A DNA stretch of 64,000 nucleotides from Roseobacter sp. MH60115 (GTDB lineage Bacteria > Pseudomonadota > Alphaproteobacteria > Rhodobacterales > Rhodobacteraceae), in assembly GCF_015644665.1 (NCBI RefSeq), contig NZ_JADOBQ010000002.1, forward strand, positions 1-64,000. The letters are read 5' to 3'. The first letter of the stretch is position 1, and each line of letters begins with the position of its first letter. Below the pieces are notes generated by a model. That model did not search any database, was not told the DNA's origin, and saw nothing but the letters and a program-made list of their open reading frames with translations. This document shows positions 3,780-18,882 of the stretch, one piece after another. The position numbers were made by a program, and so were the translations under genes.

Positions 3780-3790
3780 AAAAATGGGCC

Positions 3791-4555
3791 TTAGCAGGTG
3801 TAATTCAGTCCAAGGCGCCCGCCATCCACGTAGATGGTTTCGCCTGTGACATAGCTTGATTTTGGAGAGCACAAAAACGCGACCACATCACCGATCTCGC
3901 GCGCGGTGCCGGCACGTCCCAACGGTGTCCGTGACATCGCCGTTTTGAATGCCTCCGGGTTGGCATTGACGCCCGCCATCATCTCTGTGTCGATGGAGCC
4001 CGGACCAACCGCGTTCACGCGAATGTTGTTCTTGGCAAGGGCAAGCGCCGCAACCTTCGTCAGCTGCATCACGCCGCCCTTGGACGCGCAATAGGCCGGG
4101 ATCGCGGGGATCGCGACCTGAGCGTTGATCGAGGACATATTAACGATTGCGCCCTCAATCCCCTTCTCGACCATCGTGCGTGCGGCTCTCTGCGTGGCCA
4201 CAAACACGCCACGCAGGTTCACGCCGATCACTGTATCGAACGCCGCAAGGTCATAGCTGAGAAAGTCGCCCGGCATGGCGATCCCGGCGTTGTTGACCAG
4301 CGCGCTGACCGGCCCATGCTCGGCCTCGATCGTGTCAAAGAGTGCAGCGATGGCACCCACATCCCCGAAATCACAGATGTAGCCCGCACCACCCAAGCGC
4401 GCGCCCTGGGCGACAACGTCGTCCTTGATGTCAGCGAGGATCACTTTGAACCCATCCTCGGCAAGCGCTTCTGCGCAGGCAAGTCCAATTCCTTGGGCTG
4501 CGCCCGAGATCAGGGCAATAGGTGTGTCAGTCATTGTCGGTGTCCTGTCTTTCAT
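3791..4555 (-). CDS. Short-chain dehydrogenase/reductase (SDR)
   Basis: A classical SDR of up to 254 residues. It has the cofactor loop SGAAQGIG (17-24), NNAG (88-91), catalytic Ser at 141/142, and Tyr155 and Lys159 in YCASK. The acidic residue after the second strand (LADIKD) favours NAD over NADP. Two starts are possible. The ATG at 4555 overlaps the upstream stop as ATGA, giving translational coupling. An ATG at 4534 has AGGACA about 8 bases upstream and gives the more typical family N-terminus. The substrate cannot be told; it probably oxidises a hydroxy intermediate downstream of the HyuAB step. Confidence 0.88.
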   Translation of the reverse strand: MKDRTPTMTDTPIALISGAAQGIGLACAEALAEDGFKVILADIKDDVVAQGARLGGAGYICDFGDVGAIAALFDTIEAEHGPVSALVNNAGIAMPGDFLSYDLAAFDTVIGVNLRGVFVATQRAARTMVEKGIEGAIVNMSSINAQVAIPAIPAYCASKGGVMQLTKVAALALAKNNIRVNAVGPGSIDTEMMAGVNANPEAFKTAMSRTPLGRAGTAREIGDVVAFLCSPKSSYVTGETIYVDGGRLGLNYTC

Positions 4556-6198
4556 TCATATCCGTAGTCAGACTTCGCCTGTTCCGGCGTGATGAAGCCT
4601 GCCGAGAGGTCCGCAGCCACGTCGTCTTTCGATCTTGCAGAGGCCGGCCCGTAGCCCCCCCCGCCGGGCAAGCTCAGGCGCAAGCGCTGACCATTCTTGA
4701 CCAACTGTCGCCCTTTTGCGCGCAACGTCGTTCCATCAGCCAGTTCAACGCGCCCCGCCGCACCCGGCGCACCTCCATCACGCCCGCGGGCGGCGTTTTT
4801 CACGCGATCAAACATGGCGTTGAAGTAGATGTCATAGCCGTCGCGCGGTTCGATCTCGATTATCTGCCCCAGCCCACCGCGCTGTGCACCTGCGCCGCCG
4901 GACCCTGCCCGTAAGTCCTTGCGCCATACGGTGATCGGGCCGACGTGTTCTGTCGCTTCCACGCTCATGGTGGACACTCCGGAGGGGAACGCCGTCGCAG
5001 ACAGCCCATCATGTGCGGGCCGGGCGCCCGTGCCGCCAGAGTTGAACATCAGAACTTCGCGGTTCGGCAGATCGCCTGCCGGGTCGCTGGGCCGCGCGGA
5101 GATCTGAATGTTCCAAAGCGCTGATGCGCCTTCGGCAGGCACCGTATCCGGCAACGCCTTGTGCAACGCGCCCAAAACCACGTCCGGCACCAGATGCCCC
5201 ATCACATGGCGCACAGACACAGGGGCCGGGCGCTTTGCCGCCAAGATGCACCCCTCAGGCGCTGTGATTTGAAACGGTTCCAGCGAGCCGGTGTTGTTCG
5301 GCACCTGCGGGGCGATCGCACACTTCAGCCCGTAGCAGGCATAGGCGCGGGTATAGACCTCGGGGCAGTTGACCCCGAACTTGCTCATGCCCGAGGTTCC
5401 GGCGAAATCCGCAATCAGGCTATTCCCGTCGATGGTCAATTGCACCTGCATGTGCACGGGCGCATCGTATCCATCGACCTGCATCATGTGCTGGAATGTT
5501 CCGTCCGGCACCTCGGCAATCGCTTCCAAAGTGGCCTTGCGGCTTGTCTCGATGATAAAGTCTGCCAGTGCATCAATGTCATCGCTGTCGAATTCGTCCA
5601 GCATCGCCTGCAGCCGACGATCCCCAGCCTCGTTGCACGCGGCCAGAGAATAGATGTCACCGACGGTTTGATCGGGTGTCCGCACGTTAGACCGGATCAT
5701 GCGCACAAGGTCCTTGGAGACCTGACCCCGTTCGGCAAACTTCATGATCGGTATCAACAGTCCTTCTTCAAAAACCTCATGCCCGTCTGGCCCAAAGCCG
5801 CGCCCGCCGATGTCCACCACATGGGCGGTGCAGGCGAAGTAACCGATGTGCGTTTCGTTGCGGAACACCGGCGAAACGATGGTAATGTCGTGCAGGTGCC
5901 CGGTTCCCATCCAGGGATCATTGGTGATCAGGACATCCCCTTCAAAGATATCCTGAACCCCGATTTCGCGCACAAAATGCGTCACACTTTCGGCCATCGC
6001 ATTCACATGCCCCGGCGTGCCGGTCACCGCTTGCGCGATCATCTGGCCATGTCGGTCAAAGAGACCAGCGGAGAGGTCTCCTGCTTCTCGAACGGACGTC
6101 GAAAAGGCTGTGCGAATAAGCGTTGTGGCCTGTTCTTCGACGACGGCGATCAGCCGGTTCCACATGATTTGCAGGTCAATACTGCTCAGCTTGCTCAT
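4552..6198 (-). CDS. hyuB: Hydantoinase B/oxoprolinase subunit
   Basis: A 548-residue HyuB-family protein, the second subunit of ATP-dependent hydantoinases, 5-oxoprolinases and related enzymes such as acetone carboxylase. It opens with the family start (IDLQIMWNRL then SVREAGDLSAGLFD) and carries the NDPWMGTGHL-D motif and the glycine-rich C-terminal LPGGGGYG. It overlaps hyuA by 4 bases (ATGA) and is followed by the SDR gene with another 4-base overlap. The two subunits together would open a five-membered lactam or hydantoin ring using ATP. Which ring cannot be decided from sequence. Confidence 0.9.
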   Translation of the reverse strand: MSKLSSIDLQIMWNRLIAVVEEQATTLIRTAFSTSVREAGDLSAGLFDRHGQMIAQAVTGTPGHVNAMAESVTHFVREIGVQDIFEGDVLITNDPWMGTGHLHDITIVSPVFRNETHIGYFACTAHVVDIGGRGFGPDGHEVFEEGLLIPIMKFAERGQVSKDLVRMIRSNVRTPDQTVGDIYSLAACNEAGDRRLQAMLDEFDSDDIDALADFIIETSRKATLEAIAEVPDGTFQHMMQVDGYDAPVHMQVQLTIDGNSLIADFAGTSGMSKFGVNCPEVYTRAYACYGLKCAIAPQVPNNTGSLEPFQITAPEGCILAAKRPAPVSVRHVMGHLVPDVVLGALHKALPDTVPAEGASALWNIQISARPSDPAGDLPNREVLMFNSGGTGARPAHDGLSATAFPSGVSTMSVEATEHVGPITVWRKDLRAGSGGAGAQRGGLGQIIEIEPRDGYDIYFNAMFDRVKNAARGRDGGAPGAAGRVELADGTTLRAKGRQLVKNGQRLRLSLPGGGGYGPASARSKDDVAADLSAGFITPEQAKSDYGYE

Positions 6199-8282
6199 GC
6201 TGTGCCCTCCTTGCGGAGCAGCAGCAAACTGCCGTCTCCCTGACCGACAACTTTAAACGCCGAAGTCACAATTGTTGTGGTTTCGCGTTCAACAACAATT
6301 GCGGGGCCGCTCACTTCGGTTCCTGGTGTTAGTGCCTCCCGCGCAACTTCCCGTGCTGTCACAGTCTTGCGCAAGGCGGCGTCAAAGAATTCGCGGTCCC
6401 GCAAGATCGCGGCGGTGCTCCCGTTTTGGTGGCGTTCCGCAGGCGATACGTCTTCCAGCACGGTGGATACAATCAACGACCAATTCGTCACCTCGCAAGC
6501 CAATCCGTCGATGATACGGCCAAAGAGGGCGCGGTAGGCTTGTTCAAAGGCATCGACAATCGATGCGCCATCACCATCTGCAAAAACCTTGTGCGGCAGC
6601 GAAACCGGTATCTCCCATCCTTGGCCGGAATAACGCATGAACGCCGTCAGCTTGATCTCGGTCGCTTGGCCTTTGGCGCCTCCGTCTACAAACGCCCGCG
6701 CTTCGGCTTCCAGCTCGGAGAGCATTGCGTTGACAGTCTCGGCATCGAATTCAGCCAGCCGCTGGAACAGTCCCCGGGATGCTTCATAGCTGAACGGCGC
6801 CTTGAGAAACCCGATGGCAGAGCCAACGCCTGCACCCGGCGGGATCAGCAAGGCATTGATCCCGAGTTTCTCGCACAGGCGGCAGGCATGCAGCGGTGCG
6901 CCGCCGCCAAACCCGACCATCGTAAAATGCTCGATATCGCGACCGTTCTCGACCGTGTGCACGCGGGCCGCATTGGCCATGTTCTCATCCACCATTTCGG
7001 TCACCCCAAAGGCGGCGTCTTCAACACTCAGCCCGGTGCTACCGGTCAACCGCGCTGTCACGGCAGCATCCGAGGCTGCGGGATGCAATGGGATCGCCCC
7101 ACCGGCAAAGTTCTTCGGATCAAGTCGCCCGAGCAGCAAGTTCGAATCCGTAACCGTCGGCTCCTGACCGCCACGTCCGTAACAGGCGGGCCCCGGTTCA
7201 GAGGCCGCTGATTTTGGCCCAACCTGGATGCGGCCCATGGCATCAATCGACGCGATTGAACCGCCTCCGGCGCCGATCTCCACCATTTCGACAACCGGAG
7301 TCGACACAGTCATGCCGGAGCCTTTCTTGAACCGATAGGTGCGGGCGACCTCAAAGGTATTCGCGGTCTTGGGTGCGCCGTCTTCGATCAAACAGATCTT
7401 CGCCGTTGTGCCGCCCATGTCAAAGCTCAGCACCTTGTCCAAACCGTGCGCCCGCGCAAAGTCAGCGGCAAAGATCGCACCACCGGCGGGACCGGATTCG
7501 AGCAACCGCACAGGCTGCTCTGCCGCATCGTCGACCGACATCAACCCACCGCCCGAGTGCAGCATGAAGACCGGTGCATCCACGTCAGCCTCGCGCAGAC
7601 GACTGACGAGGCGGCCGAGGTAATCCGCGACTTGCGGCTGAACATAAGCATTCGCGATGACTGTATTGAACCGCGGCAATTCCCGCATCTGAGGTGAGAC
7701 CACGGAGGAGGTGGAAATCGACAGATCCGGTGCAGCCGTGCGAAGGGCTTCGGCCATCGCGACCTCATGTGCATCGTTGGCATAGGCATGCATCAGGCCG
7801 ATGGCGACAGCCTCATACCCGCCGCTCAATACCCGTTGGACCATCTGCTCAACTTCGGCCTTGTCAAGCGCCAGCAAGACTTCACCCGCTGGCCCCATGC
7901 GGCCATTCAGCGTGAACCGATCCTGGCGCGGCACCAGAGGCGTGGGCAGGGTCAGGTTCAGATCATACTGCTCAAACCGGTTCTCGGATCGCATTTCGAT
8001 GACATCGCGAAAGCCTTCGGTCGTGATGAAGGCAAGCTTGGCACCCCGCCGTTCGATCAAAGCATTGGTGACCAGTGTCGTCCCGTGAATGACCTGTTCG
8101 ATCTCTCTGAGCGCTATTCCAGCTTGGGACGCCGCAAGCGCGATCCCGTCCAGAATGGCTTGCTCGGGTTGGGCATAGTTGGTCAGCACTTTGCAGGTGA
8201 AAAGCCGCCCGCTGTGGTCAAGTGCCACATCGGTGAACGTTCCGCCGATGTCTACGCCAACACGCGTTTTGAAATTGGTCAT
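6195..8282 (-). CDS. hyuA: Hydantoinase A/oxoprolinase subunit
   Basis: A 695-residue HyuA-family protein, the ATP-binding subunit with an actin/Hsp70-like fold. Landmarks are GVDIGGTFTDV at the N-terminus, the HGTTLVTNALIERRGAK block, LSFDMGGTTAKICLI in the middle and VGFGGGAPLHA further on, all hallmarks of the family. Length is typical. It starts 3 bases after the FAD oxidoreductase stop and overlaps hyuB. HyuA/HyuB pairs act on N-methylhydantoin, 5-oxoproline or related rings. The neighbouring amine oxidase and amino-acid transporter support an amino-acid-derived ring. Confidence 0.92.
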   Translation of the reverse strand: MTNFKTRVGVDIGGTFTDVALDHSGRLFTCKVLTNYAQPEQAILDGIALAASQAGIALREIEQVIHGTTLVTNALIERRGAKLAFITTEGFRDVIEMRSENRFEQYDLNLTLPTPLVPRQDRFTLNGRMGPAGEVLLALDKAEVEQMVQRVLSGGYEAVAIGLMHAYANDAHEVAMAEALRTAAPDLSISTSSVVSPQMRELPRFNTVIANAYVQPQVADYLGRLVSRLREADVDAPVFMLHSGGGLMSVDDAAEQPVRLLESGPAGGAIFAADFARAHGLDKVLSFDMGGTTAKICLIEDGAPKTANTFEVARTYRFKKGSGMTVSTPVVEMVEIGAGGGSIASIDAMGRIQVGPKSAASEPGPACYGRGGQEPTVTDSNLLLGRLDPKNFAGGAIPLHPAASDAAVTARLTGSTGLSVEDAAFGVTEMVDENMANAARVHTVENGRDIEHFTMVGFGGGAPLHACRLCEKLGINALLIPPGAGVGSAIGFLKAPFSYEASRGLFQRLAEFDAETVNAMLSELEAEARAFVDGGAKGQATEIKLTAFMRYSGQGWEIPVSLPHKVFADGDGASIVDAFEQAYRALFGRIIDGLACEVTNWSLIVSTVLEDVSPAERHQNGSTAAILRDREFFDAALRKTVTAREVAREALTPGTEVSGPAIVVERETTTIVTSAFKVVGQGDGSLLLLRKEGTA

Positions 8283-8285
8283 ATC

Positions 8286-9560
8286 TTAGATGGCCTTGAG
8301 AACTTGGTTGGCTGTGAACGCGGATTGGTAGATGCGCGAGACAATGGGCGCACTGGGCACTGTCATCAGTTCGGTCATGGGGAGCGGCAGATCTGCGCGG
8401 TCCATCCCGGTGAGAAGCCCCGCCATGGTCTCGCCGAACATGGTTCCGGTGGTGATGCCGCGACCGTTGTAGCCGATTGGCGTGAAGAGGTTGGTGTCCA
8501 GCTCATAGATGCGCGGCAGGTGGTCCGGCGTCATGGCGATCTGGCCGTGCCAGGCTTCTTCGAACTCGACAGGGCCAAGGTCCGGAAATATGCCCGCGAT
8601 CTGCTTTTTGGCCCATCTGTGCGACAAGCCGCGATCCTTGCTACCCACCACCTTTCCCATGGAGCCGACCAAAAGCCGGTTGAAGGCATCGCGGCGGATG
8701 TTGAACATGATCTGACCGGTATCCCAAAGGCCTTGTTTCCCGGGCAGGATGTGATCTGCTTCCGCCCCCAAGGGGCCGGTTGCCAGTTGGAAGTAATGGA
8801 TCATTGTAAAAATGCGGCTCAGGTTGGGCCAGAGCGTATCGGTATAGGCGTTTGTACCCAGCACGACGGCCTTGGCTGTCACGGTTCCTCTATTGGTTTC
8901 AACTTTCCAAAGATCGCCGTCGCGCACCAGTTTCTTTGCGTGGGCGCCCGTGGTGATTTTTGCACCTGCGCCCATCGCTGCACGCGCCAAACCGCGACAA
9001 TACCCCATCGGGTTGATGGTCCCGCAGCGATGATCCAGCAAACCGCCGTGGAAATGTGCGGTGCCAATCATTTCTGACACCTCTTCGCGCGACATAAGAT
9101 CAACCGGTTCACCGAGGCGCATCCACTCCTCATGGCGCTCCTTTAGGTCTTTGAAGCCGCTTGGGCCGTGGGCGGCGTGGATTGTTCCGGTGCGCGTGAC
9201 CTCACAGCGAATCTGATGCTTCTCGATCAGGGAAAAAACGTATTCCGGGCCGCTGCCGAACTTCTTTATGAAGCGCGGGCCATAAGTGGTGCCCAGTTTT
9301 TCGCGGACCTTCTGCGGCGGGAGCCACAAAGCCGCGTTAACCAGGCCGCAATTTCTGCCGGACCCCCCAAACCCGATCTGTTTCGCTTCAAGGACATGTG
9401 CAGAAAGCCCCTTTTCAGCACAGTGCAAAGCGGTTGAGAGCCCGGTGAAGCCACCCCCGACAATTGCAACGTCAACAGACACGTCGCCCAGGGTTTCATT
9501 GGTATAGTCTTCCTCTGCGGCAGACGCATCCCATAAAGAAATCGCAGCTTCTTTCGACAT
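8286..9560 (-). CDS. FAD-dependent oxidoreductase, DAO/PuuB-like
   Basis: A 424-residue flavoprotein of the D-amino-acid oxidase/gamma-glutamylputrescine oxidase type. It has the N-terminal FAD loop VGGGFTGLS (34-42), an ELDTNLFTPIGYNGRGIT block near the C-terminus typical of the DAO fold, and a long N-terminal tail as in PuuB-like enzymes. It should oxidise a primary or secondary amine, or an amino acid, to an imine. The start at 9560 (MSKEA) is chosen because an upstream frame to 9620 adds an unconserved cysteine-rich stretch. It is the first gene of the operon; a TTGACA box and the predicted IclR-type site lie upstream. Confidence 0.88.
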   Translation of the reverse strand: MSKEAAISLWDASAAEEDYTNETLGDVSVDVAIVGGGFTGLSTALHCAEKGLSAHVLEAKQIGFGGSGRNCGLVNAALWLPPQKVREKLGTTYGPRFIKKFGSGPEYVFSLIEKHQIRCEVTRTGTIHAAHGPSGFKDLKERHEEWMRLGEPVDLMSREEVSEMIGTAHFHGGLLDHRCGTINPMGYCRGLARAAMGAGAKITTGAHAKKLVRDGDLWKVETNRGTVTAKAVVLGTNAYTDTLWPNLSRIFTMIHYFQLATGPLGAEADHILPGKQGLWDTGQIMFNIRRDAFNRLLVGSMGKVVGSKDRGLSHRWAKKQIAGIFPDLGPVEFEEAWHGQIAMTPDHLPRIYELDTNLFTPIGYNGRGITTGTMFGETMAGLLTGMDRADLPLPMTELMTVPSAPIVSRIYQSAFTANQVLKAI

Positions 9561-9633
9561 CAAAGAGACTCCATACTTTGGCGCTGAACAACAGACGAAG
9601 TGTTGCCAGCAAGGTTGCAACAGGAGTTACTTT

Positions 9634-10077
9634 GTGTCAATATATGAAATATATGTTCCGAATAATGGTACAACTATGGAAAAACTCAAAACCACTGCTG
9701 CGGACATGGTCAAGGCTGCCCGTAACCGCATCGAAGAGGTCGAAACTGCTGACTTGATCGCTATGATGGATGATCCTGACGTCGTTGTTGTCGACATTCG
9801 TGACGTTAGAGAGCGCCAGCGCACAGGTGCGATCCCGGGCTCGATCCATGCACCGCGCTGCATGATAGAGTTCTGGGTTGATCCGGACAGCCCCTATTAT
9901 AAGGACGCTTTTGGCCAGGAGGACAAAAGATATGTCTTCCACTGTGCGTCAGGGTGGCGGTCGGCGCTGACTGTCGCGACGCTGCAAGACATGGGGTTTG
10001 ACGCCGCCCATCTAAAAGAGGGGTTTTCGACCTGGGTGGAAAAGGGCGGCCCGGTGGAAACGATCGAGAAAAAGTAA
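9634..10077 (+). CDS. Rhodanese-like domain protein
   Basis: A single-domain rhodanese-like protein of 147 residues (133 if started at the ATG at 9676). It contains VVVVDIRDVRERQ and an active-site loop with cysteine, CASGWRSA, so it can plausibly carry a persulfide. Family members transfer sulfane sulfur. The GTG at 9634 has AGGAG seven bases upstream, whereas the ATG at 9676 has no Shine-Dalgarno sequence but gives the more usual N-terminus. The predicted operator at 9654-9672 falls between the two starts. It diverges from the FAD oxidase operon and converges on the iclR gene with a 3-base gap. It points to sulfur chemistry in this locus. Confidence 0.82.
   Translation: MSIYEIYVPNNGTTMEKLKTTAADMVKAARNRIEEVETADLIAMMDDPDVVVVDIRDVRERQRTGAIPGSIHAPRCMIEFWVDPDSPYYKDAFGQEDKRYVFHCASGWRSALTVATLQDMGFDAAHLKEGFSTWVEKGGPVETIEKK
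9635..9640 (-). promoter_or_regulatory. Putative -35 box of the FAD oxidase/hyu operon
   Basis: Read on the minus strand this is TTGACA, a perfect -35 hexamer, followed by CAA. It sits exactly 13 bases from the predicted operator at 9654-9672. The same operator-13 bp-TTGACACAA arrangement occurs on the plus strand before the PLP lyase gene (13200-13240). The -10 at 17 bp spacing is poor, which would suit an activated promoter. Confidence 0.45.
9654..9672. promoter_or_regulatory. Predicted IclR-family operator, site A
   Basis: TGTTCCGAATAATGGTACA is one of four related 19-bp degenerate palindromes in this locus. It has the same TGTTCCGA...ACA frame as site B at 13200. It lies between the FAD oxidase operon and the rhodanese gene. 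Assignment to the IclR regulator at 10081-10821 is inferred from proximity and from a similar site upstream of that gene. Confidence 0.55.
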
Positions 10078-10080
10078 CCC

Positions 10081-10821
10081 TCAGGTTTTTGCCACTTTCC
10101 CCGCAACGCTTGTGGCGGCATGCGCCACAAGCGATCCCAGCCAATCGATGCCTTTGTCCGGCATGTTAACATTCGGTAGCGACACCCCAAGGGCTGCAAT
10201 CGGTTTGCCGTTTGGCAGACATATGGCGGCACCCACACTCAGGATGCGATCCCGAAACTCGCCCTTGTCGTAGGCATATCCGCGGCGCAGGGTCTCTTGG
10301 ACGTCGGCGTCGAGATCCGTCAGATTTGTGATCGTCAGTTCGGTGTGTCGGGTCAACCCTCCGCTAACCTGCGAGCGCAGCTCGTCATATTGATGGGCCA
10401 GGATGGCCTTCCCGGTTCCGACGCAATGCAGGGGCGCCGACCCGCCCACCGGGTTCCACGACCGTATAGGCTTGGAGCTGTCTCGTTTGTCGATGTAGAT
10501 CACGGACAAGCCTTCCGGCACCGCAAGATAGATCGCTTCCCCTGTTTCTTTGGACAGATACTTCATCTCCGGGGCTGCCAGCTCGCGTAGATTCAAGTTG
10601 TCGAGAAGCATACGGCCAACCTGCCATGTCTTGAGAGTCGCAGCATAGGTCTTGTCCGGATTCTGCCGCACATAACCCAACACCGACAATGACTGCAGAA
10701 GCCTGAAGGTGTTCGATTTGGTGAGCTCCAACGACTTTGCGAGCTCGGTCACCCCCATACTTGATGGTGACCCTGCGAGGGTTTCCAGAATGGACAGACC
10801 TTTTGACAGTGTCGAATCCAC
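10081..10821 (-). CDS. IclR family transcriptional regulator
   Basis: A 246-residue IclR-type regulator. It has an N-terminal winged helix (GLSILETLA...GVTELAKSLELTKSNTFRLLQSL...GYV) and a C-terminal effector domain with RDSSKPIRSWNPVGGSAPLHCVGTGKA, the IclR ligand-pocket block. The start is GTG at 10821. Members bind a pathway metabolite and repress or activate catabolic operons, and commonly control their own gene. It sits amid the catabolic genes and shares the candidate 19-bp operator with them. It is therefore the most likely regulator of the hyu operon, the rhodanese, the molybdopterin enzyme, the PLP lyase and the transporter. Confidence 0.92.
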   Translation of the reverse strand: MDSTLSKGLSILETLAGSPSSMGVTELAKSLELTKSNTFRLLQSLSVLGYVRQNPDKTYAATLKTWQVGRMLLDNLNLRELAAPEMKYLSKETGEAIYLAVPEGLSVIYIDKRDSSKPIRSWNPVGGSAPLHCVGTGKAILAHQYDELRSQVSGGLTRHTELTITNLTDLDADVQETLRRGYAYDKGEFRDRILSVGAAICLPNGKPIAALGVSLPNVNMPDKGIDWLGSLVAHAATSVAGKVAKT

Positions 10822-10869
10822 TTTCGGCTCTTTTGCGTCTGCGATTGGAAAGCCCTCCCCACAGTGTTC

Positions 10870-13176
10870 CTAATCCGGGTCTGTATCACTATACAGAACG
10901 GGTGGTTGGTGAACAGTGATGTCTGGCGGCTCGCCGTCAAAGCGATGCAAGGAAACCCGCGCCGAATGCGATGCTGGAGATTGGGACAGGCTGGATGTCC
11001 GTTGATCGTGGGTCAGAGCATTTGGGTTTCCGTGCCGGTCGCGCGCCTGGGGTGCGGAAAAATCCGGATCCCACCACGCCCCGGTCCAAAGGAACACACA
11101 TCCTTCAAACACCTCATCCGTGATCCGGGCACCAGCAAGACAGCGCCCCCGGGAATTAGATAGCTCGACAATATCCCCATCCGAGATGCGCCGCCTTGCG
11201 GCATCATTCGTGTGAATCAGGACGGGTTCTCTCCCCCGCACCTTGTGGCTCAGACTGAAGGCACCATTGTCCAGCTGGCTGTGCAATCGGGTCTTGGGCT
11301 GCCCGGAGAGCAGGAACAAATCGCCTTCTCCCGCCTTGAAGTCACGCTGAGGAAAGAAACAGGCGTGGCCTTTGCAGTCAGGCAAATCGAACCCGGCCAG
11401 TGTGTCTGAGAAAACCTCGATCAAGCCGCTAGGCGTTGGCAAAGGATTTGACGCAGGGTCTGCACGAAACTCGGCCAGAAAGACCTGGTTCGGCGATGGG
11501 TCTGGCAGTTTGATCACATCGCCTACGTGGAACGTGTCCCAATCGGGCAAGGACACGCCGTGTTGGGCCCCTGCTGCACGCGTTTCTTCCCAAATGTGCC
11601 GCAGCCAGGCGTCGGGTGTTCGTCCTTCGGTGAACTGCTCTTCTGTTCCCAAGCGACTGGCGAGGTCTTTATACATCTCGTATTCGACACGGGCCTCGCC
11701 TGGCGGTGCGGCGAGTTTGTGCATGGGGATGAGGGCGTTGTCGGATTTCCCCGCTCCAAAGTCATCGCGTTCCTGAGCTGCCGCGACGGGGAGGACAATG
11801 TCTGCGTGCCGCGCCATCGCCGTCCAGTTGAGATCATTCACGATGACGGTTTCCGGAGTTTGAATCGCCTTGTGAAGCCGGAGCAAGTCCTGATGGTGGT
11901 GGAACGGGTTTCCGCCTGCCCACCAGACAAGCCGGGCGTCGGGGAATCGGCGTTCAGCGCCGTTGTAGGTGTAGGCGCCGCCCGGGTTCAGTAACATCTC
12001 GGAAATCATCGCGACGGGGATGAAATTGGTCACCGGGTTCGTGCCCTGTGGCAGGGTCCCCCACCGGAACAACCGCTCCATGTTGCCAACGTTTGCGTTC
12101 ACGCCGTAGCCAACGGTATAGCCGCCGCCGGGCAGTCCGATCTGCCCCAGCATCGCGGCCAGGGTGACCGCCATCCACAAGGCCTGCTCACCATAGTCGG
12201 CTCTTTGCACACCCGCAGCGACAGAGATCATGCACCTGTTCGACGCCATTTTCCGAGCAAGGTCTGTGATGTCTTGAGTGGACCATCCGGTATGTTCGGC
12301 CGCCCACTCTGCCGATTTTGGCACACCATCGGATGCGCCGGTTAGATACGCTTCGAATTGGTCATACCCCACACAATACCGGGCGAGAAACGCAAGATCG
12401 TGCAACCCTTCTGACATCAGCACATAGGCCAACCCAAGCATCAATGCCGTGTCAGTTCCGGGATGCACAGGCTTCCAGTCTGCATTCAAAAACGCGGCCG
12501 CATCCGTTCTCAACGGGCTGATGTTGACGAATTCGACACCCGCCTTTGCGCAGCTCCGCAGGTTATTGCTCATCCGGTGGATTGCGACACCTCCGTCGCT
12601 GACCTGGGTGTTGCGCATGGCCATGCCGCCAAACATCACCACAAGATCGGAATGTTTGGCGATCACGCTCCACCGGGTCGCTTCGGCCACATGCTTGCGA
12701 AAGGGTCCTACGATATAGGGCATCATCACAAGGGCGGCATTGTAGCTGTAATTTCCTTCGGAATACGAGAACCCGCCAACCGTGTTCAGAAACCGTTTGA
12801 GCTGACTTTGTGCGTGGTGAAAGCGCCCGGCGCTCGACCAACCGTAGGAGCCTGCGAAGATACTCTCGTTGCCGTGGTCTGTGCGCACGCGGTTGATTTC
12901 GCCCGCAATAAAATCCAGCGCGCGATCCCATGAAACCTCGACAAATGCATCGCGCCCGCGCGGCACAGGATCACGCGATTTGTCGAGCCAGCTTTTGCGG
13001 ATTGCCGGGCGCAAAATACGCGCCGCCCCGTTCAAGCTGCCCGGGATGTTCCCGTTGATTGGTGAAGGGTCCGGGTCTGCGGGATGTCCGTCCACAGATA
13101 CAATTCTCCCGGCCTCGACCCGGGCAATGCCGACACCCCAGTGGTTTGCAGTAAGTCTGGATGTTTTTGTCGCCAA
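10870..13176 (-). CDS. Molybdopterin-dependent oxidoreductase, BisC/DMSO-reductase family
   Basis: A 768-residue single-subunit enzyme resembling biotin/methionine/TMAO sulfoxide reductases. It begins with an AxHWGVGIARVEAGRIV strand (no Fe-S cysteine cluster motif), then SWDRALDFIAGEI, SYGWSSAGRFHHAQSQLKRFLN (the family serine-ligand region) and GGNPFHHHQDL, and ends with the cofactor-binding TSSLSQ-like segment. No twin-arginine signal is seen, so it should be cytoplasmic, like BisC. I place the start at TTG 13176, with GAGGTG 8 bases upstream; an ATG at 13221 would run through the predicted operator. A sulfoxide or N-oxide substrate is likely, though not proven. The gene's 3' end holds the operator upstream of iclR. 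Confidence 0.85.
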   Translation of the reverse strand: MATKTSRLTANHWGVGIARVEAGRIVSVDGHPADPDPSPINGNIPGSLNGAARILRPAIRKSWLDKSRDPVPRGRDAFVEVSWDRALDFIAGEINRVRTDHGNESIFAGSYGWSSAGRFHHAQSQLKRFLNTVGGFSYSEGNYSYNAALVMMPYIVGPFRKHVAEATRWSVIAKHSDLVVMFGGMAMRNTQVSDGGVAIHRMSNNLRSCAKAGVEFVNISPLRTDAAAFLNADWKPVHPGTDTALMLGLAYVLMSEGLHDLAFLARYCVGYDQFEAYLTGASDGVPKSAEWAAEHTGWSTQDITDLARKMASNRCMISVAAGVQRADYGEQALWMAVTLAAMLGQIGLPGGGYTVGYGVNANVGNMERLFRWGTLPQGTNPVTNFIPVAMISEMLLNPGGAYTYNGAERRFPDARLVWWAGGNPFHHHQDLLRLHKAIQTPETVIVNDLNWTAMARHADIVLPVAAAQERDDFGAGKSDNALIPMHKLAAPPGEARVEYEMYKDLASRLGTEEQFTEGRTPDAWLRHIWEETRAAGAQHGVSLPDWDTFHVGDVIKLPDPSPNQVFLAEFRADPASNPLPTPSGLIEVFSDTLAGFDLPDCKGHACFFPQRDFKAGEGDLFLLSGQPKTRLHSQLDNGAFSLSHKVRGREPVLIHTNDAARRRISDGDIVELSNSRGRCLAGARITDEVFEGCVFLWTGAWWDPDFSAPQARDRHGNPNALTHDQRTSSLSQSPASHSARVSLHRFDGEPPDITVHQPPVLYSDTDPD
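10882..10900. promoter_or_regulatory. Predicted IclR-family operator, site C
   Basis: TGTATCACTATACAGAACG matches the reverse of site A at 14 of 19 positions. It contains the perfect 16-bp palindrome CTGTATCACTATACAG (10881-10896). It is about 60 bases upstream of the iclR start, inside the last codons of the molybdopterin enzyme gene. This position suits autoregulation. Confidence 0.55.
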
Positions 13177-13199
13177 GACGGGTTCACCTCGATTGCAGA

Positions 13200-13218
13200 T
13201 GTTCCGATATAAAGAACA
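13200..13218. promoter_or_regulatory. Predicted IclR-family operator, site B
   Basis: TGTTCCGATATAAAGAACA is an inverted repeat (TGTTC-N9-GAACA), the most symmetric of the four sites. It lies in the divergent region between the molybdopterin enzyme and the PLP lyase. A TTGACA box follows after exactly 13 bases on the plus strand (13232-13237), as at site A. Confidence 0.6.
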
Positions 13219-13231
13219 CATTTGCCAAATA

Positions 13232-13260
13232 TTGACACAATATTGAAGAGGTGTCAGGAT
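13232..13260 (+). promoter_or_regulatory. Putative promoter of the PLP lyase gene
   Basis: TTGACA (13232-13237) is followed, after 17 bases, by CAGGAT, a weak -10 box. The perfect -35 with a weak -10 and an upstream palindrome fits activator-dependent transcription. Prediction by eye only. Confidence 0.4.
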
Positions 13261-13286
13261 AAAAGCAACATACGGAATCTACAATA

Positions 13287-14462
13287 ATGCCCTCACTTGC
13301 GAAACCTCTTGAGGACCTTCTGGTCCAGTCCGGTCGGCCTGCCAAAACAGACGGTCGCCATGTCAACCTGCCAATCGAACTCGGGTCTACCATTGTCTTT
13401 GACACATTGGCAGAGTTCGAGGCGGCTCGCGACAAGCGGTATGAAACCGGCACAATGTACTATGGTCGCTATGGGAACGAAGCCAGTTTTCAGCTCGAAC
13501 GTGCACTATCGCAGCTTGATCACGCCCATGGCACCACACTGACATCATCCGGCGTCGCGGCCATCTCGCTGACGTTGCTGACCTTTGCACGGCCCGGTAT
13601 GCATCTATTGGTGGCGGACAACGTCTATGCCAACACCCGCGCTTTCTGCGATAAGGTGCTGACAGGGCTGAGTGTTCGCGTTGAGTACTTCGATCCCATG
13701 GTGGGAGAGGGCGTTTCAGATCTGATAACACCGGAAACCTGCGCGATCATGTTCGAGGCCCCGGGGTCCGGCACGTTCGAAGTTCCTGACATCCCGGCAA
13801 TTGCAAGTGCAAGCAAGGCGGCCGGTATTCCCTCCATCATCGACAGCACCTGGGCAACGCCAGTGTTTTGCGCGCCTTTGACCTTGGGCGTTGACGTGGT
13901 TGTCGCGTCTTGCTCCAAGTATCTGAGCGGTCACTCCGATTGTATGTTGGGCATGATCGCCTGCACAGAGACCTACCACGATCAGATCCGCAGCACCGTC
14001 ATGGCTGTTGGCGACAAAACCGGAGGGCAGGAGGTTTTCCTGATGCTGCGCGGGCTGCGGACCCTCAAAGTACGCATGGACGCAATCGATGCAGCTGGCC
14101 GGGAGATCGCCACGTGGCTTGCCGAGCAACCTCAGGTCAAGCGGCTGCTGCATCCCGCCTTCGAGAGCTGTCCCGGGCATGCCCATTGGCGGCGCGATTT
14201 CTCCGGGGCAGCGGGCCTGTTTGGCGTTGTGTTTCACACGTGCTCGAACGATCAAATCCGCAGCTTTGTCGACGCGTTACAGCACTTCGGCATCGGAGTC
14301 AGCTGGGGAGGATATGAGAGCCTCGTTTTGCCTGTCACACCCACCCGCACAGGCACAGATTGGTCTGAAGATGGTCAATTGGTCCGTTTTAATATCGGGC
14401 TGGATGATCCCGAAACCCTCAAGGCTGATCTTGCTGCGGCGCTTCCCCTCTTAACTTCATGA
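13287..14462 (+). CDS. Cystathionine beta-lyase-like PLP enzyme (Cys/Met metabolism family)
   Basis: A 391-residue fold-type I PLP enzyme of the Cys/Met metabolism family. It shows YGRYGNEASFQLE, the TSSGVAAISL cofactor-phosphate region, IIDSTWATP with the aspartate that pairs with the PLP nitrogen, and the Schiff-base lysine in ASCSKYLSGHSD. The overall pattern is MetC-like (cleaves a C-S bond giving a thiol, pyruvate and ammonia), but methionine gamma-lyase activity cannot be excluded. It is first in a two-gene unit with the VOC protein. Together with the rhodanese and the BisC-like enzyme it points to a sulfur-containing substrate. Confidence 0.88.
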   Translation: MPSLAKPLEDLLVQSGRPAKTDGRHVNLPIELGSTIVFDTLAEFEAARDKRYETGTMYYGRYGNEASFQLERALSQLDHAHGTTLTSSGVAAISLTLLTFARPGMHLLVADNVYANTRAFCDKVLTGLSVRVEYFDPMVGEGVSDLITPETCAIMFEAPGSGTFEVPDIPAIASASKAAGIPSIIDSTWATPVFCAPLTLGVDVVVASCSKYLSGHSDCMLGMIACTETYHDQIRSTVMAVGDKTGGQEVFLMLRGLRTLKVRMDAIDAAGREIATWLAEQPQVKRLLHPAFESCPGHAHWRRDFSGAAGLFGVVFHTCSNDQIRSFVDALQHFGIGVSWGGYESLVLPVTPTRTGTDWSEDGQLVRFNIGLDDPETLKADLAAALPLLTS

Positions 14463-14477
14463 TCGGACGATTGCCCA

Positions 14478-15116
14478 ATGCCCAACAACAGAATTGATCA
14501 CTTCGCGATCGGCGCCCATTCTCTGGAACAAGGTGTGGCTGCAATGCAAAACGCCTTGGGTGTCGAAGTCCCACGCGGCGGCAAACATGAAGCGATGAGC
14601 ACCCACAACTGTGTCATGCAATCCGGGAACGAGAGCTTCTTTGAGTTGATCGCCATTGACCCGGACGCGCCAGACCCCGGGCGCGCACGTTGGTTCACTC
14701 TGGATGATCCGGCCACGCAAGAGCGGCTGTCAGAGCGTCCGCGTGCGCTGTGTTGGGTGGTTGGTACGGATGACTTGGACGCGGTGATCGCGGCGAGCCC
14801 CGTTGATCTGGGCGAAGTCGTCTTGTTTACACGCGGCGACCGATCCTGGCGCCTGACGGTGCCAAAAGACGGCAGTCTGCCAATGGGAGGGCTGCTCCCG
14901 GCTTTCATCGAATGGTCGCCCGGACCGCACCCGTCAACAGGGCAGCAGGATCTGCGTGTCACGCTCAAGTCCGTGCATTTGTACCATCCGGATCCCGATA
15001 ACCTGTCTGGTATTCTTCAGGCGCTTGGGGTGGATCACCTGGCTTCCGTTCATCAAGGCGCGACCGCTTTGTCTTTCGAGTTGGAAACTGCAAACGGGTC
15101 AGTCACCCTCGACTAG
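14478..15116 (+). CDS. VOC/glyoxalase-like domain protein
   Basis: A 212-residue protein starting with RIDHFAIGAHSLEQGVAAMQNALGVEVPRGGKHEAMSTHN, the hallmark of the Glyoxalase_3-like VOC family. Members bind a metal through His/Glu ligands and act as lyases, isomerases or dioxygenases. The specific reaction is unknown. It follows the PLP lyase by 15 bases and should be cotranscribed. A strong hairpin terminator follows. Confidence 0.78.
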   Translation: MPNNRIDHFAIGAHSLEQGVAAMQNALGVEVPRGGKHEAMSTHNCVMQSGNESFFELIAIDPDAPDPGRARWFTLDDPATQERLSERPRALCWVVGTDDLDAVIAASPVDLGEVVLFTRGDRSWRLTVPKDGSLPMGGLLPAFIEWSPGPHPSTGQQDLRVTLKSVHLYHPDPDNLSGILQALGVDHLASVHQGATALSFELETANGSVTLD

Positions 15117-15142
15117 CCACGCCTTGACGATGCGATTGCACG

Positions 15143-15180
15143 ACGGGAAAGGGGCTGCCCAAAGGCAGCCCCTTTCCCGT
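15143..15180. terminator. Strong bidirectional hairpin between convergent genes
   Basis: A perfect 17-bp stem (15143-15159 pairs with 15164-15180) closes a CAAA loop. It lies between the convergent VOC gene and the permease gene. T-runs are short, but the stem is very stable and can end transcription from both sides. Confidence 0.8.
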
Positions 15181-15207
15181 CTGGGGGAGACCGAAGGCTG
15201 GCGCAGG

Positions 15208-16296
15208 TTACCGCTCGGATATGGCCATGCGACCCTTGAGGTATTCGCCGTACTGACCCAAGGAGAAGATGAAGAGCCAGTAGATCAAGGCGACGAAGAC
15301 ATAGACTTCCAGATAGTAAGGCGCCCATTCACCCGTGCCAAAGGCCGCCTTTGCCGATGCCATGACGTCGAAGAAGCCGATGATGATCACCAGCGCCGTT
15401 TCCTTGAACGTGATGACCACCATGTTGATGGTGGATGGCAGTGCGTGGCGGAACACCTGTGGCAGGACAATACGACCCAGAGTCTGCCAATAAGTAAGCC
15501 CAAGCGCCTGGCCAGCCTCGAATTGTCCCTTTGGGATCGCTTGAAAGCCACCTCTGAAAACTTCGGCCTGATAGCAGGCGAAGAACAGAGCGAATGCGAC
15601 AATCACACGCCAGATTTTGTCACCTTCAAGCCAGCTCGGCAGGATGATCGGGATCACGACTGCTGCCGTAAACAGCGTGACAAGCAGGGGCAGCGACCGC
15701 ACGAAATCGATCAAAACAACTGCAAACCCCCTGACAAACGGCATCTCGGAGCGGCGCATGAGCGCGAGCCCGAGCCCCATCGGCATGCCCAGCAGCACCA
15801 CCGATGAGAACAGGAACAGTGTCAGGGACAGCCCGCCCCACCCATCTGTGGTGACCTGTTGCAGGCCAAGCAGGCTGCCTTCCATCAGCAGGTAGTAGGT
15901 CGCGAAACCAACAATCCACAGCGTCACGATGCGCTTGGCGCTCCACATCAGCGGGATGCAGGAGATCACGACGGTTGCGATGATGGCAACAGCGGCAAGC
16001 GTGGACCGCCAGTGCTGGTCGAAGGGGTAAAGGCCAAACAGGATCAGGCGGTGACGGGCGTCAATGACCGCCCAGCACGCCCCGGCGCCGGTACCTTTGC
16101 CGCATTGACCGACGTTCTCTGCCGACCAGATGGCGCGCAATATGGCCCAGTCAAACAAGGACCAGGCAAGCCATGCCAGCACACCAAAGACCAGGATTGA
16201 AAGAGCAGACTGCGTAGGTGTGGGAAACGCCCGCTTTTTCAGAACTTGCGTGATGGACTGAAATTTTGTCGGTGCTGTTACAGAGAGGTCAGACAT
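15208..16296 (-). CDS. Amino-acid ABC transporter permease (AapM type)
   Basis: A 362-residue inner-membrane permease of the polar amino-acid family. It is long, as AapM is, with an extended N-terminal half and extra membrane spans before the permease core. The core includes LGLTYWQTLGRIVLPQVFRHALPS, the EAA loop that docks the ATPase. It starts one base after the AapQ stop (TGATATG). It pairs with AapQ and, by inference, with the ATPase at 770-1507. Confidence 0.88.
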   Translation of the reverse strand: MSDLSVTAPTKFQSITQVLKKRAFPTPTQSALSILVFGVLAWLAWSLFDWAILRAIWSAENVGQCGKGTGAGACWAVIDARHRLILFGLYPFDQHWRSTLAAVAIIATVVISCIPLMWSAKRIVTLWIVGFATYYLLMEGSLLGLQQVTTDGWGGLSLTLFLFSSVVLLGMPMGLGLALMRRSEMPFVRGFAVVLIDFVRSLPLLVTLFTAAVVIPIILPSWLEGDKIWRVIVAFALFFACYQAEVFRGGFQAIPKGQFEAGQALGLTYWQTLGRIVLPQVFRHALPSTINMVVITFKETALVIIIGFFDVMASAKAAFGTGEWAPYYLEVYVFVALIYWLFIFSLGQYGEYLKGRMAISER

Positions 16297-16297
16297 A

Positions 16298-17434
16298 TCA
16301 GTGCGCTTTCAGTTTCATACGCGCATTCAGCCAGTTTGTGAAAACCGCGAGACCGCCGTTCACCAGTAGGAATGCGCCAGCCAGGATCGCAATCAGCTCA
16401 AGGGTTTGACCGGATTGGGTGATCGAGATGGACACGATGTAGAAGAGGTCGCTGAACCCGATGGCGACACCAATCGTGGTCGCCTTCATCATGAAAATCC
16501 ATTGATTGCCAAGCGGTGGAATAATCGAACGCAATGCCATCGGCATCTTGATGCGCGACCAGATGGCGCCTTTGCTCAGGCCAAGTGCCTGCCCTGCCTC
16601 TGTCAGGCCTTTGGGCACTTGTGCCAGGCCACCACGGACCACTTCCGCGATATAGGCGCTGCCATATAGGGTAATCGCAACAATCATCCCCACGAGCTCG
16701 ATGGGAATTGTGATGCCCCCACGGAACCGCAATCCTTTCAGTTCCGGTATCGTGACGAGGGTTGCACCTTCCGGGCGCATTGCGATGGCGGCCACGATGC
16801 ACATAAGGATTGACCCGCCGACCCAGCCCAGCACCCCGTGGATCAACGGAATTTTCCGCGATATCAAAACGACGCCGAGCGCTATGGAAGCAAGCAGCAG
16901 AGCGACGGCCACACCCGGCGTGACACTCAGCCCAGGCAGCATCAGACCACGGTTTGACAGGAATATCGTATCTGCCATTGACATCGCTTGGCGCGGGCCC
17001 GGCAAGTTGATCAAAACTGCGTAGAGGAAGACCAGTTGCAGGATCAGCGGGATGTTGCGGAAAATTTGGACATACACGGTGGCGGCGGTCTTAATCGCGA
17101 TGTTCGACGCATCACGGGCAGTTCCGATGATGAATCCAAACAGGGTCGTCAGGAAAATCGCGATGAAGCCGACAAAAAGCGTGTTCAGAAACCCGACGAA
17201 GAGCGTCTGTGAATAAGGGTCCATGATTGTTTTGGGCACAAGCGAGAAGCTGTAGTCCCACCCCGTGCTACGCTCTAAAAATCCAAAGCCGCTGGTCAGA
17301 CCCTGAGCTTCGAGGTTGGTGCGCGCGGTTGTAAAGGCACCCAGTATGACCAGAGCCGACAAGGCAATGAGGCCGGCTTGAATAGCGATTTTGCGCCGCT
17401 TTGCCCTTTGGCGCAACTCATCAGCTTTGGACAT
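16298..17434 (-). CDS. Amino-acid ABC transporter permease (AapQ type)
   Basis: A 378-residue inner-membrane permease. It has an N-terminal span, a long insert with extra hydrophobic segments as in AapQ, and an EAA loop, EAGQALGLSKGAIWSRIKMPMALRSIIPPLGNQW. GGGGGA lies before the start at 17434. It is the middle gene of the J-Q-M unit, 63 bases after the binding-protein gene, from which a hairpin separates it. Confidence 0.88.
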   Translation of the reverse strand: MSKADELRQRAKRRKIAIQAGLIALSALVILGAFTTARTNLEAQGLTSGFGFLERSTGWDYSFSLVPKTIMDPYSQTLFVGFLNTLFVGFIAIFLTTLFGFIIGTARDASNIAIKTAATVYVQIFRNIPLILQLVFLYAVLINLPGPRQAMSMADTIFLSNRGLMLPGLSVTPGVAVALLLASIALGVVLISRKIPLIHGVLGWVGGSILMCIVAAIAMRPEGATLVTIPELKGLRFRGGITIPIELVGMIVAITLYGSAYIAEVVRGGLAQVPKGLTEAGQALGLSKGAIWSRIKMPMALRSIIPPLGNQWIFMMKATTIGVAIGFSDLFYIVSISITQSGQTLELIAILAGAFLLVNGGLAVFTNWLNARMKLKAH

Positions 17435-17461
17435 CTCGTTCCCCCTACCCAGGTAAGCAAG

Positions 17462-17486
17462 ATGGGTCGGCAGTGGGCCGACCCAT
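17462..17486 (-). terminator. Hairpin between binding-protein and permease genes
   Basis: A 10-bp perfect stem (ATGGGTCGGC / GCCGACCCAT) with a 5-base loop lies just after the binding-protein stop codon and has no T-run. Such hairpins commonly protect the upstream message, so that more binding protein than permease is made. That role here is inference. Confidence 0.55.
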
Positions 17487-17497
17487 TGTTGGCCGGA

Positions 17498-18532
17498 TCA
17501 GTCCAGGATCGGTGCGTAGAGCACGCCGCCATGGCTCCACAGGTTGTTCAACCCGCGGTCCAGTTTATAGGGGCTGTTTGCACCAAGGTTACGGTCATAA
17601 ACCTCGCCAAAATTGCCGACCGCTGCGATCATCTCGCGCGCCCAAGTATCGCGAAGCCCAAGACGCTCCCCCATGCCGGGCTCGGACCCGAGCAGACGAG
17701 CAACCTTCGGGTTGGGTGGGTTGGCTGCCATGTCTTCGACATTGGCCATGGTCACGCCCTCTTCTTCGGCGATCAGCATGGCGGCCAGCATCCAGTTGAC
17801 GACGTCAACGAATTCCTCGTCACCCTGCCGCATTGCAGCGGAGATCGGTTCCGACGACAGCTGATCGTTCAGGATTACGTGGGCATCAGGATTGTCGATT
17901 TCCGTGGCGCGCAGAACAGCAAGGTTAGGACCCCAGCCTGCGAATGCATCGCAGCGATTGGCGACATACGCCGCGCGAAGTTCGGCCGCACTCTCGTATG
18001 ACACCATGGTATGTTCTACCCCAAGCGTTGACAGATAGTTCGCCGCGATCCGTTCGATCGTTGTTCCGGCTTCGACGCAAATTGTGCCGCCATCCAGGTC
18101 TTTGGCTTCCGTGATGCCCAAATCACCATGCGCCATGAACTGAGTGCCGCCGAAGAAATATGGCAGACTGAACTGCAAGCCGAGCTCGGTATCGCGACCC
18201 ATCGTCCAGCCGGTCGCCTTGATAATCAGATCGACGTCCCCGGACTGCAAAGCCGGAAACCGCTGTGCCCAGGACAAAGGCACAATCTGATTGGCGTTCG
18301 GGTCCCCGAGGATAGCGGTTGTCAACGCGCGGCAGAGGTCAATGTCGAGCCCCTTCCACTCGTTTTTGTCGTTGACCTCAACAAAACCAAAGTAACTGCC
18401 ATTGTGGCCTGAACACAGCAATGTGCCGCGCTCTTTGATTTGCTGAACCGTTGGGCTCTCGGCCACAGCCGTGACCGGAAGCAATGCAAGCGCAGCTGCC
18501 GCTACACTCTTGAGAGACATTTCCTTGAACAT
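17498..18532 (-). CDS. Amino-acid ABC transporter substrate-binding protein (AapJ type)
   Basis: A 344-residue periplasmic binding protein. A signal peptide of about 24 residues ends at AVAES. Next come the SBP family 3 landmarks: GTLLCSGHNGSYFGF, GLDIDLCRALTTAILGD, and the GTICVEAGTTIERIAANYL hinge region. Length and C-terminus fit AapJ. It binds a polar amino acid or a derivative; the substrate is not readable. It heads the transporter unit, with operator site D immediately upstream. Confidence 0.9.
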   Translation of the reverse strand: MFKEMSLKSVAAAALALLPVTAVAESPTVQQIKERGTLLCSGHNGSYFGFVEVNDKNEWKGLDIDLCRALTTAILGDPNANQIVPLSWAQRFPALQSGDVDLIIKATGWTMGRDTELGLQFSLPYFFGGTQFMAHGDLGITEAKDLDGGTICVEAGTTIERIAANYLSTLGVEHTMVSYESAAELRAAYVANRCDAFAGWGPNLAVLRATEIDNPDAHVILNDQLSSEPISAAMRQGDEEFVDVVNWMLAAMLIAEEEGVTMANVEDMAANPPNPKVARLLGSEPGMGERLGLRDTWAREMIAAVGNFGEVYDRNLGANSPYKLDRGLNNLWSHGGVLYAPILD

Positions 18533-18546
18533 CTTTTCTTCCCTGT

Positions 18547-18565
18547 TGTTCTATATAACGACACA
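18547..18565. promoter_or_regulatory. Predicted IclR-family operator, site D
   Basis: TGTTCTATATAACGACACA. Its reverse complement matches site B at 15 of 19 positions. It lies 14 bases upstream of the binding-protein start codon and contains a TTATAT that could be a -10 box, so binding here would block initiation. Confidence 0.5.
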
Positions 18566-18882
18566 TTTGTGCTGATATGTAGCATGTTTGGATGCATACG
18601 ATGAGTCAAGTGAAAATCGCGAAATGCAAGGAGAGCATCTGAGGAATGCGTACCAACTGGACGTTTGGTGCTGATTTCATATCGGAATAATGCTGGCACA
18701 TCGTAACCACCAAGGAGTGGAGGTGAGACAGAGTTGGAGGGGCCAGAAAAGGTCCCAGTGGAGCAGCGTCCCCGATTGGTGGAACACGACCAGCCACGTT
18801 GAGACGTTCACAAAGGACATCAGCCGTGGAAACGCGCAAAAATCATTGGATGAAGAGAATATCCGAATCTTTCTGCACGGCA
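18566..18882. other. Stretch without a recognisable gene
   Basis: About 315 bases upstream of the binding-protein gene. Short open frames on both strands show no family motif. It probably contains the promoter of the transporter unit; I cannot place it reliably. Confidence 0.4.

Follow-up and report, generated by a model that had tools for sequence, protein, structure and literature searches.

A predicted IclR-family regulon with tandem palindromic operators in Roseobacter sp. MH60115

TtgV, an IclR-family regulator that controls an efflux pump, acts as a tetramer on one long operator. Binding of the TtgV tetramer to its operator is also cited in the main text of a comparative survey of the family (Suvorova and Gelfand, 2021; PMC8222616), which gives the palindrome of IclR group 1 as GKTYCRYW3-4RYGRAMC, places most site centres at -20 to -80 from gene starts, and describes in 94 orthologous groups tandem palindromes 18-22 nt apart (centre to centre), an arrangement tied there to tetramer binding. 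Another member, BhcR of Paracoccus denitrificans, is described as regulating the beta-hydroxyaspartate cycle and as activating the bhc genes; a single palindrome is predicted upstream of bhcA, ahead of the -35 box (PMC11323563). Here we consider a predicted regulon in the first 64,000 nucleotides of contig NZ_JADOBQ010000002.1 of Roseobacter sp. MH60115 (hereafter the window), which encode an IclR-family regulator, IclR, at 10081-10821. An initial annotation had noticed four copies of a degenerate 19-bp palindrome at promoter regions around its gene (9654, 10882, 13200 and 18547) and read them as single sites of one IclR regulon. We find that three of the four belong to tandem operators, each made up of two 19-bp palindromes, and that the site near iclR, at 10882, is single.

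All four 19-mers are present where they had been placed. Their likeness had been put at 14-15 of 19 bases for every pair, and is somewhat lower (13, 13, 13, 14, 14 and 15 in the best orientation); three of them are partial palindromes, with 8-10 of 19 positions self-complementary, while the 10882 site hardly qualifies (4 of 19). The bare palindrome TGTTC-N9-GAACA was rejected as evidence, being common genome-wide (143 occurrences with at most one mismatch, against 108 for a reversed control), and four hand-picked sites alone are therefore insufficient to settle the matter. A degenerate 19-bp scan in the code of the International Union of Pure and Applied Chemistry was also rejected as proof, with 139 places at up to two mismatches against 122 in the control; at zero or one mismatch, 5 of 13 distinct places fall in this locus. 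The evidence is carried by the A/T core, the 21-bp companion and conservation.

The motif was learned from relatives. The training set consisted of ten distant loci of the same family, with IclR proteins at 58-67% identity and the window excluded; the 35 regions upstream of mapped genes in these ten loci only were given to a palindromic motif search (400 seeds, the best 8 refined), and the five results inspected converged on a single motif with the consensus TGTTCTGnaatnCAGAACA. Closer loci came from a scan of genome contigs, in which four of nine carry IclR orthologues at 81-91% identity (L006, Tateyamaria sp.; L007, Roseobacter sp.; L008, Tateyamaria omphalii; L009, Actibacterium sp., which is one contig with G063 and was counted only once); the other five, at 30-43% identity, were unused. 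On the window, the distant-relative matrix ranks the reported sites 1, 2, 3 and 6, and 18568, 13221 and 9633 come 4, 5 and 7; the eighth-best match has 12.1 bits. The four copies thus all stand among the top seven, and the other three of the seven, companions that had been overlooked, each lie 21 bp from a reported site, which makes three of the four reported sites tandem operators. The 19-bp unit of the initial annotation holds at 10882; at the other three places the unit is a tandem operator of 40 bp. All seven matches of at least 14.7 bits in the window lie at the four reported places, and dinucleotide shuffles of the window gave a mean of 0.25 such matches (n=60; 13 shuffles with any).

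The 21-bp pitch was surveyed in 20 sequences, namely the first 22 kb of the window, the ten trained loci and nine others; L111 (genome G308) was excluded as a near copy of L052 (G203), with 77 of 98 consecutive 200-bp pieces identical. Among site pairs 10-100 bp apart, 24 of 25 stand at 21 bp, where permuted matrices (n=100) gave a mean of 0.04 pairs and a maximum of 4. The pitch holds for 15 of 15 close pairs in the ten untrained sequences and for 9 of 10 in the trained ones. When 36 primary sites were scored for companions (single iclR-proximal sites and L057 left out), the mean companion score was 10.35 bits at -21, and other offsets within 70 bp averaged -27 (standard deviation 4.4). Companions of at least 5 bits are found at 30 of the 36 sites, always on the side facing away from the gene for the rhodanese, molybdoenzyme or binding protein (0/36 on the opposite side). 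No 21-bp partner of the 10882 site was found with the 19-bp matrix.

Specificity was assessed with a composite, a 40-position sequence model built from 28 sequences. In the genome's own search, in which 150 of 380 first-look candidates were scored, the five matches at E<=10 are all at the three operators, the first two read on both strands (9633-9672, E=2.0e-7; 13200-13239, E=8.0e-7; 18547-18585, E=0.049). The composite is hence not found elsewhere in this genome among the scored candidates, which answers the concern, raised in the initial annotation, that the motif might be as common elsewhere. A first draw of 295 genomes of the family (stricter filters, 22 scored candidates per genome) gave composite matches at E<=1e-4 in 10 of 12 genomes with an IclR orthologue (at least 58% identity) and in none of 283 without. 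These ten matching genomes had supplied training sequences, and so a second draw of new genomes was used, 80 of 99 serving as a held-out set: the composite occurs in 5/5 genomes with this IclR orthologue, against 1/75 without. Four of the positives reach E<=5.3e-5 and G313 0.0046, G308 being the near copy of training genome G203 mentioned above; the sole match without an orthologue (E=0.0044) is about what chance would give. The operator therefore co-occurs with the regulator across held-out genomes, and the motif is kept at orthologous promoters where this IclR is present, the second point on which the regulon had been said to stand or fall. The orthologue itself is uncommon, at E<=1e-80 in 17 of 394 genomes of the family. 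G269 also has an untrained operator, between the rhodanese and FAD (flavin adenine dinucleotide)-oxidase genes of a cluster that stands apart from iclR, at a distance of about 559 kb. The only other genome of the genus in the first draw, G266, has no IclR orthologue and no more than a weak composite match.

The reverse comparison used six genomes with a close hyuA (69-78% identity) and no IclR orthologue. In five of the six, the region upstream of the oxidase is free of sites (best scores -3.3 to -9.6 bits), and nothing in the 16-20 kb examined reaches 9 bits. G174, the sixth, retains a degraded site and has another IclR-type regulator close by; the gene of this regulator (L125 13241-14074, 22% identity) stands at a related oxidase-hyuAB cluster, and upstream of it, at 13024-13063, are two palindromes 21 bp apart with 20.9 and 9.2 bits. 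A more distant locus, L061, with a 46% IclR homologue, has no operator and was used as an outlier only.

The regulator carries an N-terminal HTH_IclR and a C-terminal IclR_C domain and belongs to the IclR family. Its best NCBIfam match is BhcR (NF045644), at 152.4 bits, below the cut-off of 350, and it is not assigned to that model. The helix TKSN(T/V)FRLLQ is identical save for the Thr/Val position in 20/20 orthologous IclR sequences compared (window included), and differs in L061. The 10882 site precedes the iclR start by 61 bp and falls within the last ~10 codons of the molybdoenzyme gene; a clear iclR-proximal site is present in the window, L008, L009, L056 and L112, and a weaker one in L054, 191 bp upstream.

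The predicted promoters bear on how such operators would act. Among 29 promoters read toward the FAD oxidase or the pyridoxal phosphate (PLP) lyase (in three, a different gene or none is mapped there), TTGACA (matching in 5 or more of 6 bases) stands at one fixed companion position in 28, shifted by one base in L053, and the hexamer 17 bp past it starts with CA in 26/29 and reads CAnnnT in 20/29 (hand count). The binding-protein side is reversed: there TTGACT/A and a 17-bp spacer make the first six bases of the companion the predicted -10 in 6 of 7 promoters (five by script and L110 by eye, where the script had picked a second TTGAC), and in the seventh (L060), as in the torC promoter of L057, the -10 is one base off. 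A bound protein would thus cover the -35 or the -10, and repression is on this ground the first choice over activation; given that these are operators of this IclR, its action is probably repression. It is rather unlikely that the bound IclR is an activator, or that within each divergent pair it activates one promoter and represses the other. Such activation would suit the primary palindromes, which at the divergent promoters precede the -35 boxes of the FAD oxidase and PLP lyase, and has a precedent in BhcR, the best named NCBIfam match, which is described as activating the bhc genes and has its predicted palindrome upstream of the -35 (PMC11323563); it would not be expected from the overlap of the companion with the -35 itself or, on the binding-protein side, with the -10. 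An activator position was considered for the invariant TTGACA at 23 bp from the centre of the site and rejected, as this sequence belongs to the second palindrome. The overlap might also mean that the resemblance is one of shared promoter elements (TTGACA and an A/T-rich -10) in a conserved arrangement, with no operator, and the outer companion halves are indeed promoter-like boxes. We give this hardly any weight: the primary palindromes stand off the -35 position with 10 to 24 bits, and the five clusters without this IclR that have no palindrome keep TTGAC upstream of the oxidase in four cases (by eye). The inner companion halves, which are free of promoter boxes, score at least 4 bits with the motif in 22/37 (trained loci included; 9/17 at oxidase, 6/12 at lyase and 7/8 at binding-protein or torC promoters), against 0.6-0.8% of background positions, so that the companions are more than promoter boxes.

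The sites could be real operators of another regulator, for example another IclR paralogue of the genome, and IclR motifs are alike within the family. Two look-alikes stand near such genes, one with two mismatches (C1:839939) about 0.2 kb upstream of the IclR gene at C1:840137, the other with one mismatch (C1:759301) 0.3 kb past the 3' end of the IclR gene at C1:759599-760312, and in G174 a weak site is kept where a different IclR-type regulator adjoins the cluster. We consider this quite improbable in view of the contrast between genomes with and without the orthologue, seen in the first draw (training genomes included) and again in the held-out set, and of the eight genomes with only a 36-39% homologue as best IclR match, none of which has the composite at E<=0.01. 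Several observations do weigh against the assignment to this IclR or against repression by it. The composite occurs weakly, at E<=0.01, in 7/283 genomes without an orthologue (0.0016-0.0084; about 3 expected), in one of them, G174, at the related oxidase promoter; of the two first-draw genomes that have the orthologue and no composite match, G110 has no operator by the composite or the 19-bp matrix (best 5.4 bits, upstream of the molybdoenzyme), although its IclR keeps the same helix but for Val; and in the other, G007, the composite missed an operator that the 19-bp matrix finds. In the genome itself, the binding-protein composite alone reaches only its E of 0.049. The FAD-oxidase companion is weak in several relatives, its inner half being below 4 bits in 8/17 cases and negative in L114, L104, L056 and L060, an iclR-proximal site is not clear in most other loci with iclR, and the sign of regulation is not certain, since BhcR, closest by name, is described as an activator (PMC11323563).

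On balance the sites are very probably operators of the IclR-family protein of the locus, and the initial interpretation as one IclR regulon is supported, with binding by the protein presumed from the sequence evidence. Repression by this IclR would work as follows. At three promoter regions the operator consists of two 19-bp palindromes at a pitch of two DNA turns, a spacing at which two dimers could pair up on the same face of the DNA. The regions would be rhodanese and, divergently, FAD oxidase-hyuAB-SDR (short-chain dehydrogenase/reductase)-coenzyme A (CoA) ligase-ATPase; BisC-type reductase, possibly with iclR, and divergently PLP lyase-VOC (vicinal oxygen chelate protein); and binding protein-permeases. 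With the outer half of the companion serving as predicted -35 (FAD oxidase, PLP lyase) or predicted -10 (binding protein), bound IclR would cover the promoter and repress it, and a pathway metabolite would release it. Through the single site near its own gene, IclR would probably also control its own synthesis, in this species and in some of its relatives.

The features are listed in Table 1. Several rhodanese orthologues match from the first residue encoded at 9676, and a longer frame from GTG 9634 would enclose the operator. The primary operator at 9654 ends 3 bases before this ATG (3-5 bases in L006-L009), which leaves no space for a ribosome-binding site, and the mRNA may be almost without a leader.

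Table 1. Predicted operators, predicted promoters and genes of the locus (window coordinates).
Feature	Coordinates	Strand or location	Remarks
Predicted primary operator, reported site 1	9654..9672	rhodanese/FAD-oxidase intergenic	19.9 bits, rank 3; matrix untrained on site
Predicted companion operator of site 1	9633..9651	21 bp pitch; outer half holds predicted FAD-oxidase -35	14.8 bits, rank 7
Single operator-like site, reported site 2	10882..10900	molybdoenzyme gene 3' end, centre 70 bp upstream of iclR	16.0 bits, rank 6
Predicted primary operator, reported site 3	13200..13218	molybdoenzyme/PLP-lyase intergenic	20.3 bits, rank 2
Predicted companion operator of site 3	13221..13239	21 bp pitch; outer half holds predicted PLP-lyase -35	16.3 bits, rank 5
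Predicted primary operator, reported site 4	18547..18565	upstream of solute-binding protein gene	21.3 bits, rank 1
Predicted companion operator of site 4	18568..18586	21 bp pitch; outer end is predicted -10	16.4 bits, rank 4
TTGACA, predicted -35 of DAO-hyuA-hyuB promoter	9635..9640	-	predicted -10 CAACCT 9612-9617, 17-bp spacer
Predicted PLP-lyase promoter	-35 TTGACA 13232-13237; -10 CAGGAT 13255-13260		
Predicted binding-protein promoter	-10 CATGCT 18581-18586; -35 TTGACT 18604-18609		
IclR-family regulator, 246 amino acids, GTG start	10081..10821	-	Pfam HTH_IclR 4.8e-17, IclR_C 1.2e-32
Rhodanese-domain protein	9676..10077	+	ATG 9676; Pfam Rhodanese 2.5e-17
FAD-dependent amine/imino-acid oxidase (DAO)	8286..9560	-	Pfam DAO 6.1e-60
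hyuA, hydantoinase/oxoprolinase-type subunit	6195..8282	-	
hyuB, partner subunit	4552..6198	-	
SDR oxidoreductase, downstream in DAO-hyuAB series	3791..4555	-	
Acetate/propionate-CoA ligase-like protein	1872..3872	-	
Polar amino-acid-type ATP-binding cassette (ABC) transporter ATPase	770..1507	-	
BisC-type S- or N-oxide (S/N-oxide) reductase, likely TTG start 13173	10870..13173	-	Pfam molybdopterin domains
PLP C-S lyase, cystathionine beta-lyase type	13287..14462	+	TIGR01324 381.7 bits, above 365.9 cut-off
Glyoxalase-like (VOC) protein	14478..15116	+	Pfam Glyoxalase_3 2.4e-36; conserved PLP-lyase neighbour
ABC permease 2	15208..16296	-	
ABC permease 1	16298..17434	-	
Family 3 solute-binding protein	17498..18532	-	Pfam SBP_bac_3 1.5e-14

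The conserved gene group consists of the binding protein, two permeases, VOC protein, PLP lyase, BisC-type molybdoenzyme, iclR, rhodanese, FAD oxidase, hyuA, hyuB, SDR, CoA ligase and ABC ATPase. All of these genes occur together in L008, where the cluster has three tandem operators, and in L051, L052, L110, L111 and L114. L009 has them all too, its binding-protein gene being truncated where the contig ends, and L006, whose contig begins inside permease 1, is missing the PLP lyase. The oxidase, hyuAB and SDR genes occur without the PLP lyase in L055, L056 and L112, the last two also without the molybdoenzyme, so that the oxide-reductase step is not universal. Some of the enzymes resemble named families below the respective cut-offs: the oxidase matches the NCBIfam L-pipecolate oxidase AmaA at 446.6 bits (cut-off 600), the reductase bisC_fam at 872.9 bits (cut-off 1017.55), and the match to the caprolactamase profile is likewise below cut-off. 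No twin-arginine translocation signal was seen by eye in the BisC-type reductase, and the VOC protein has no NCBIfam match. In G007 a tandem operator with 19.0 and 12.3 bits (L057 10589-10628), outside the motif-training regions, stands in front of an operon for an S/N-oxide reductase of the TorC/TorD/TorA type, next to the iclR orthologue, which suggests that S/N-oxide reduction is a recurring target; no oxidase-hyuAB cluster was matched in that 20-kb stretch.

By their predicted products, these appear to be uncharacterised genes for the breakdown of amino acids and sulfoxides, and the substrate is perhaps an amino or imino acid in the form of an S- or N-oxide. As a tentative proposal, the regulon may serve an unrecognised catabolic pathway for a marine S-oxide (or N-oxide) amino or imino acid, with an operator that doubles as core promoter. 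Import would be followed by oxide reduction by the BisC-type molybdoenzyme, ring or amine oxidation by the pipecolate-oxidase-like enzyme, lactam opening by HyuAB and C-S cleavage by the cystathionine-lyase-type enzyme, the sulfur being handled by the rhodanese. The TorC/TorD/TorA-type operon behind a tandem operator in G007 favours such a reading. Chondrine, a cyclic sulfoxide, would be a fitting candidate; a keyword literature search for the substrate (chondrine and related terms) gave no lead. The prediction joins 14 genes without an established shared function in one regulon with a sharply defined 40-bp operator, and offers a direct handle on the substrate through its inducer. Pitch and promoter overlap hardly vary from genus to genus, and the system would therefore also be a clean one for asking at the bench whether a tetramer needs both palindromes.

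Some further observations concern the state of the genes. The cluster looks eroded in L113 (G342; 10127-13209), where the molybdoenzyme and PLP-lyase matches are truncated against each other and a permease match is in pieces; the oxidase/rhodanese operator is intact. The Roseobacter genome holds a second hyuA-like gene (G000:C12:830377-832449; 55% identity) with one in-frame TGA. Upstream of the binding-protein gene, no open frame of at least 100 amino acids lies within 18533-19720, and 18880-19800 has the appearance of remains of AraC-type regulator genes (by eye; no search made).

Among known regulators, TtgV resembles the present proposal in placing a tetramer on one long operator and differs from it in function. 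BlcR, the repressor of blcABC (PDB 3mq0), is a sequence-related IclR repressor (E=4.6e-18) of different genes. BhcR is the closest named IclR model and also acts at a divergent promoter, but is described with the beta-hydroxyaspartate cycle genes, a single palindrome and activation (PMC11323563). Keyword searches of the literature, which covered the main text of the family survey and not its supplementary tables, did not find the present regulon; that main text contains no sulfoxide, BisC, TorA, COG0243, hydantoin or Roseo- term, and its supplementary regulon lists may include the regulon (PMC8222616). By eye, the motif agrees with the group 1 palindrome closely and not exactly, with GTT-11-AAC as the nearest subgroup; at position 3 the T of the family is often replaced by G, and position 5 holds C or T. 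Here the outer half-sites overlap predicted promoter boxes, a feature that has no mention in the sections of the survey that we compared. The 21-bp pitch falls within the 18-22 nt of its tandem sites, and, measured against its main text, the regulon is new and its tandem operators are of a kind already described (Suvorova and Gelfand, 2021; PMC8222616).

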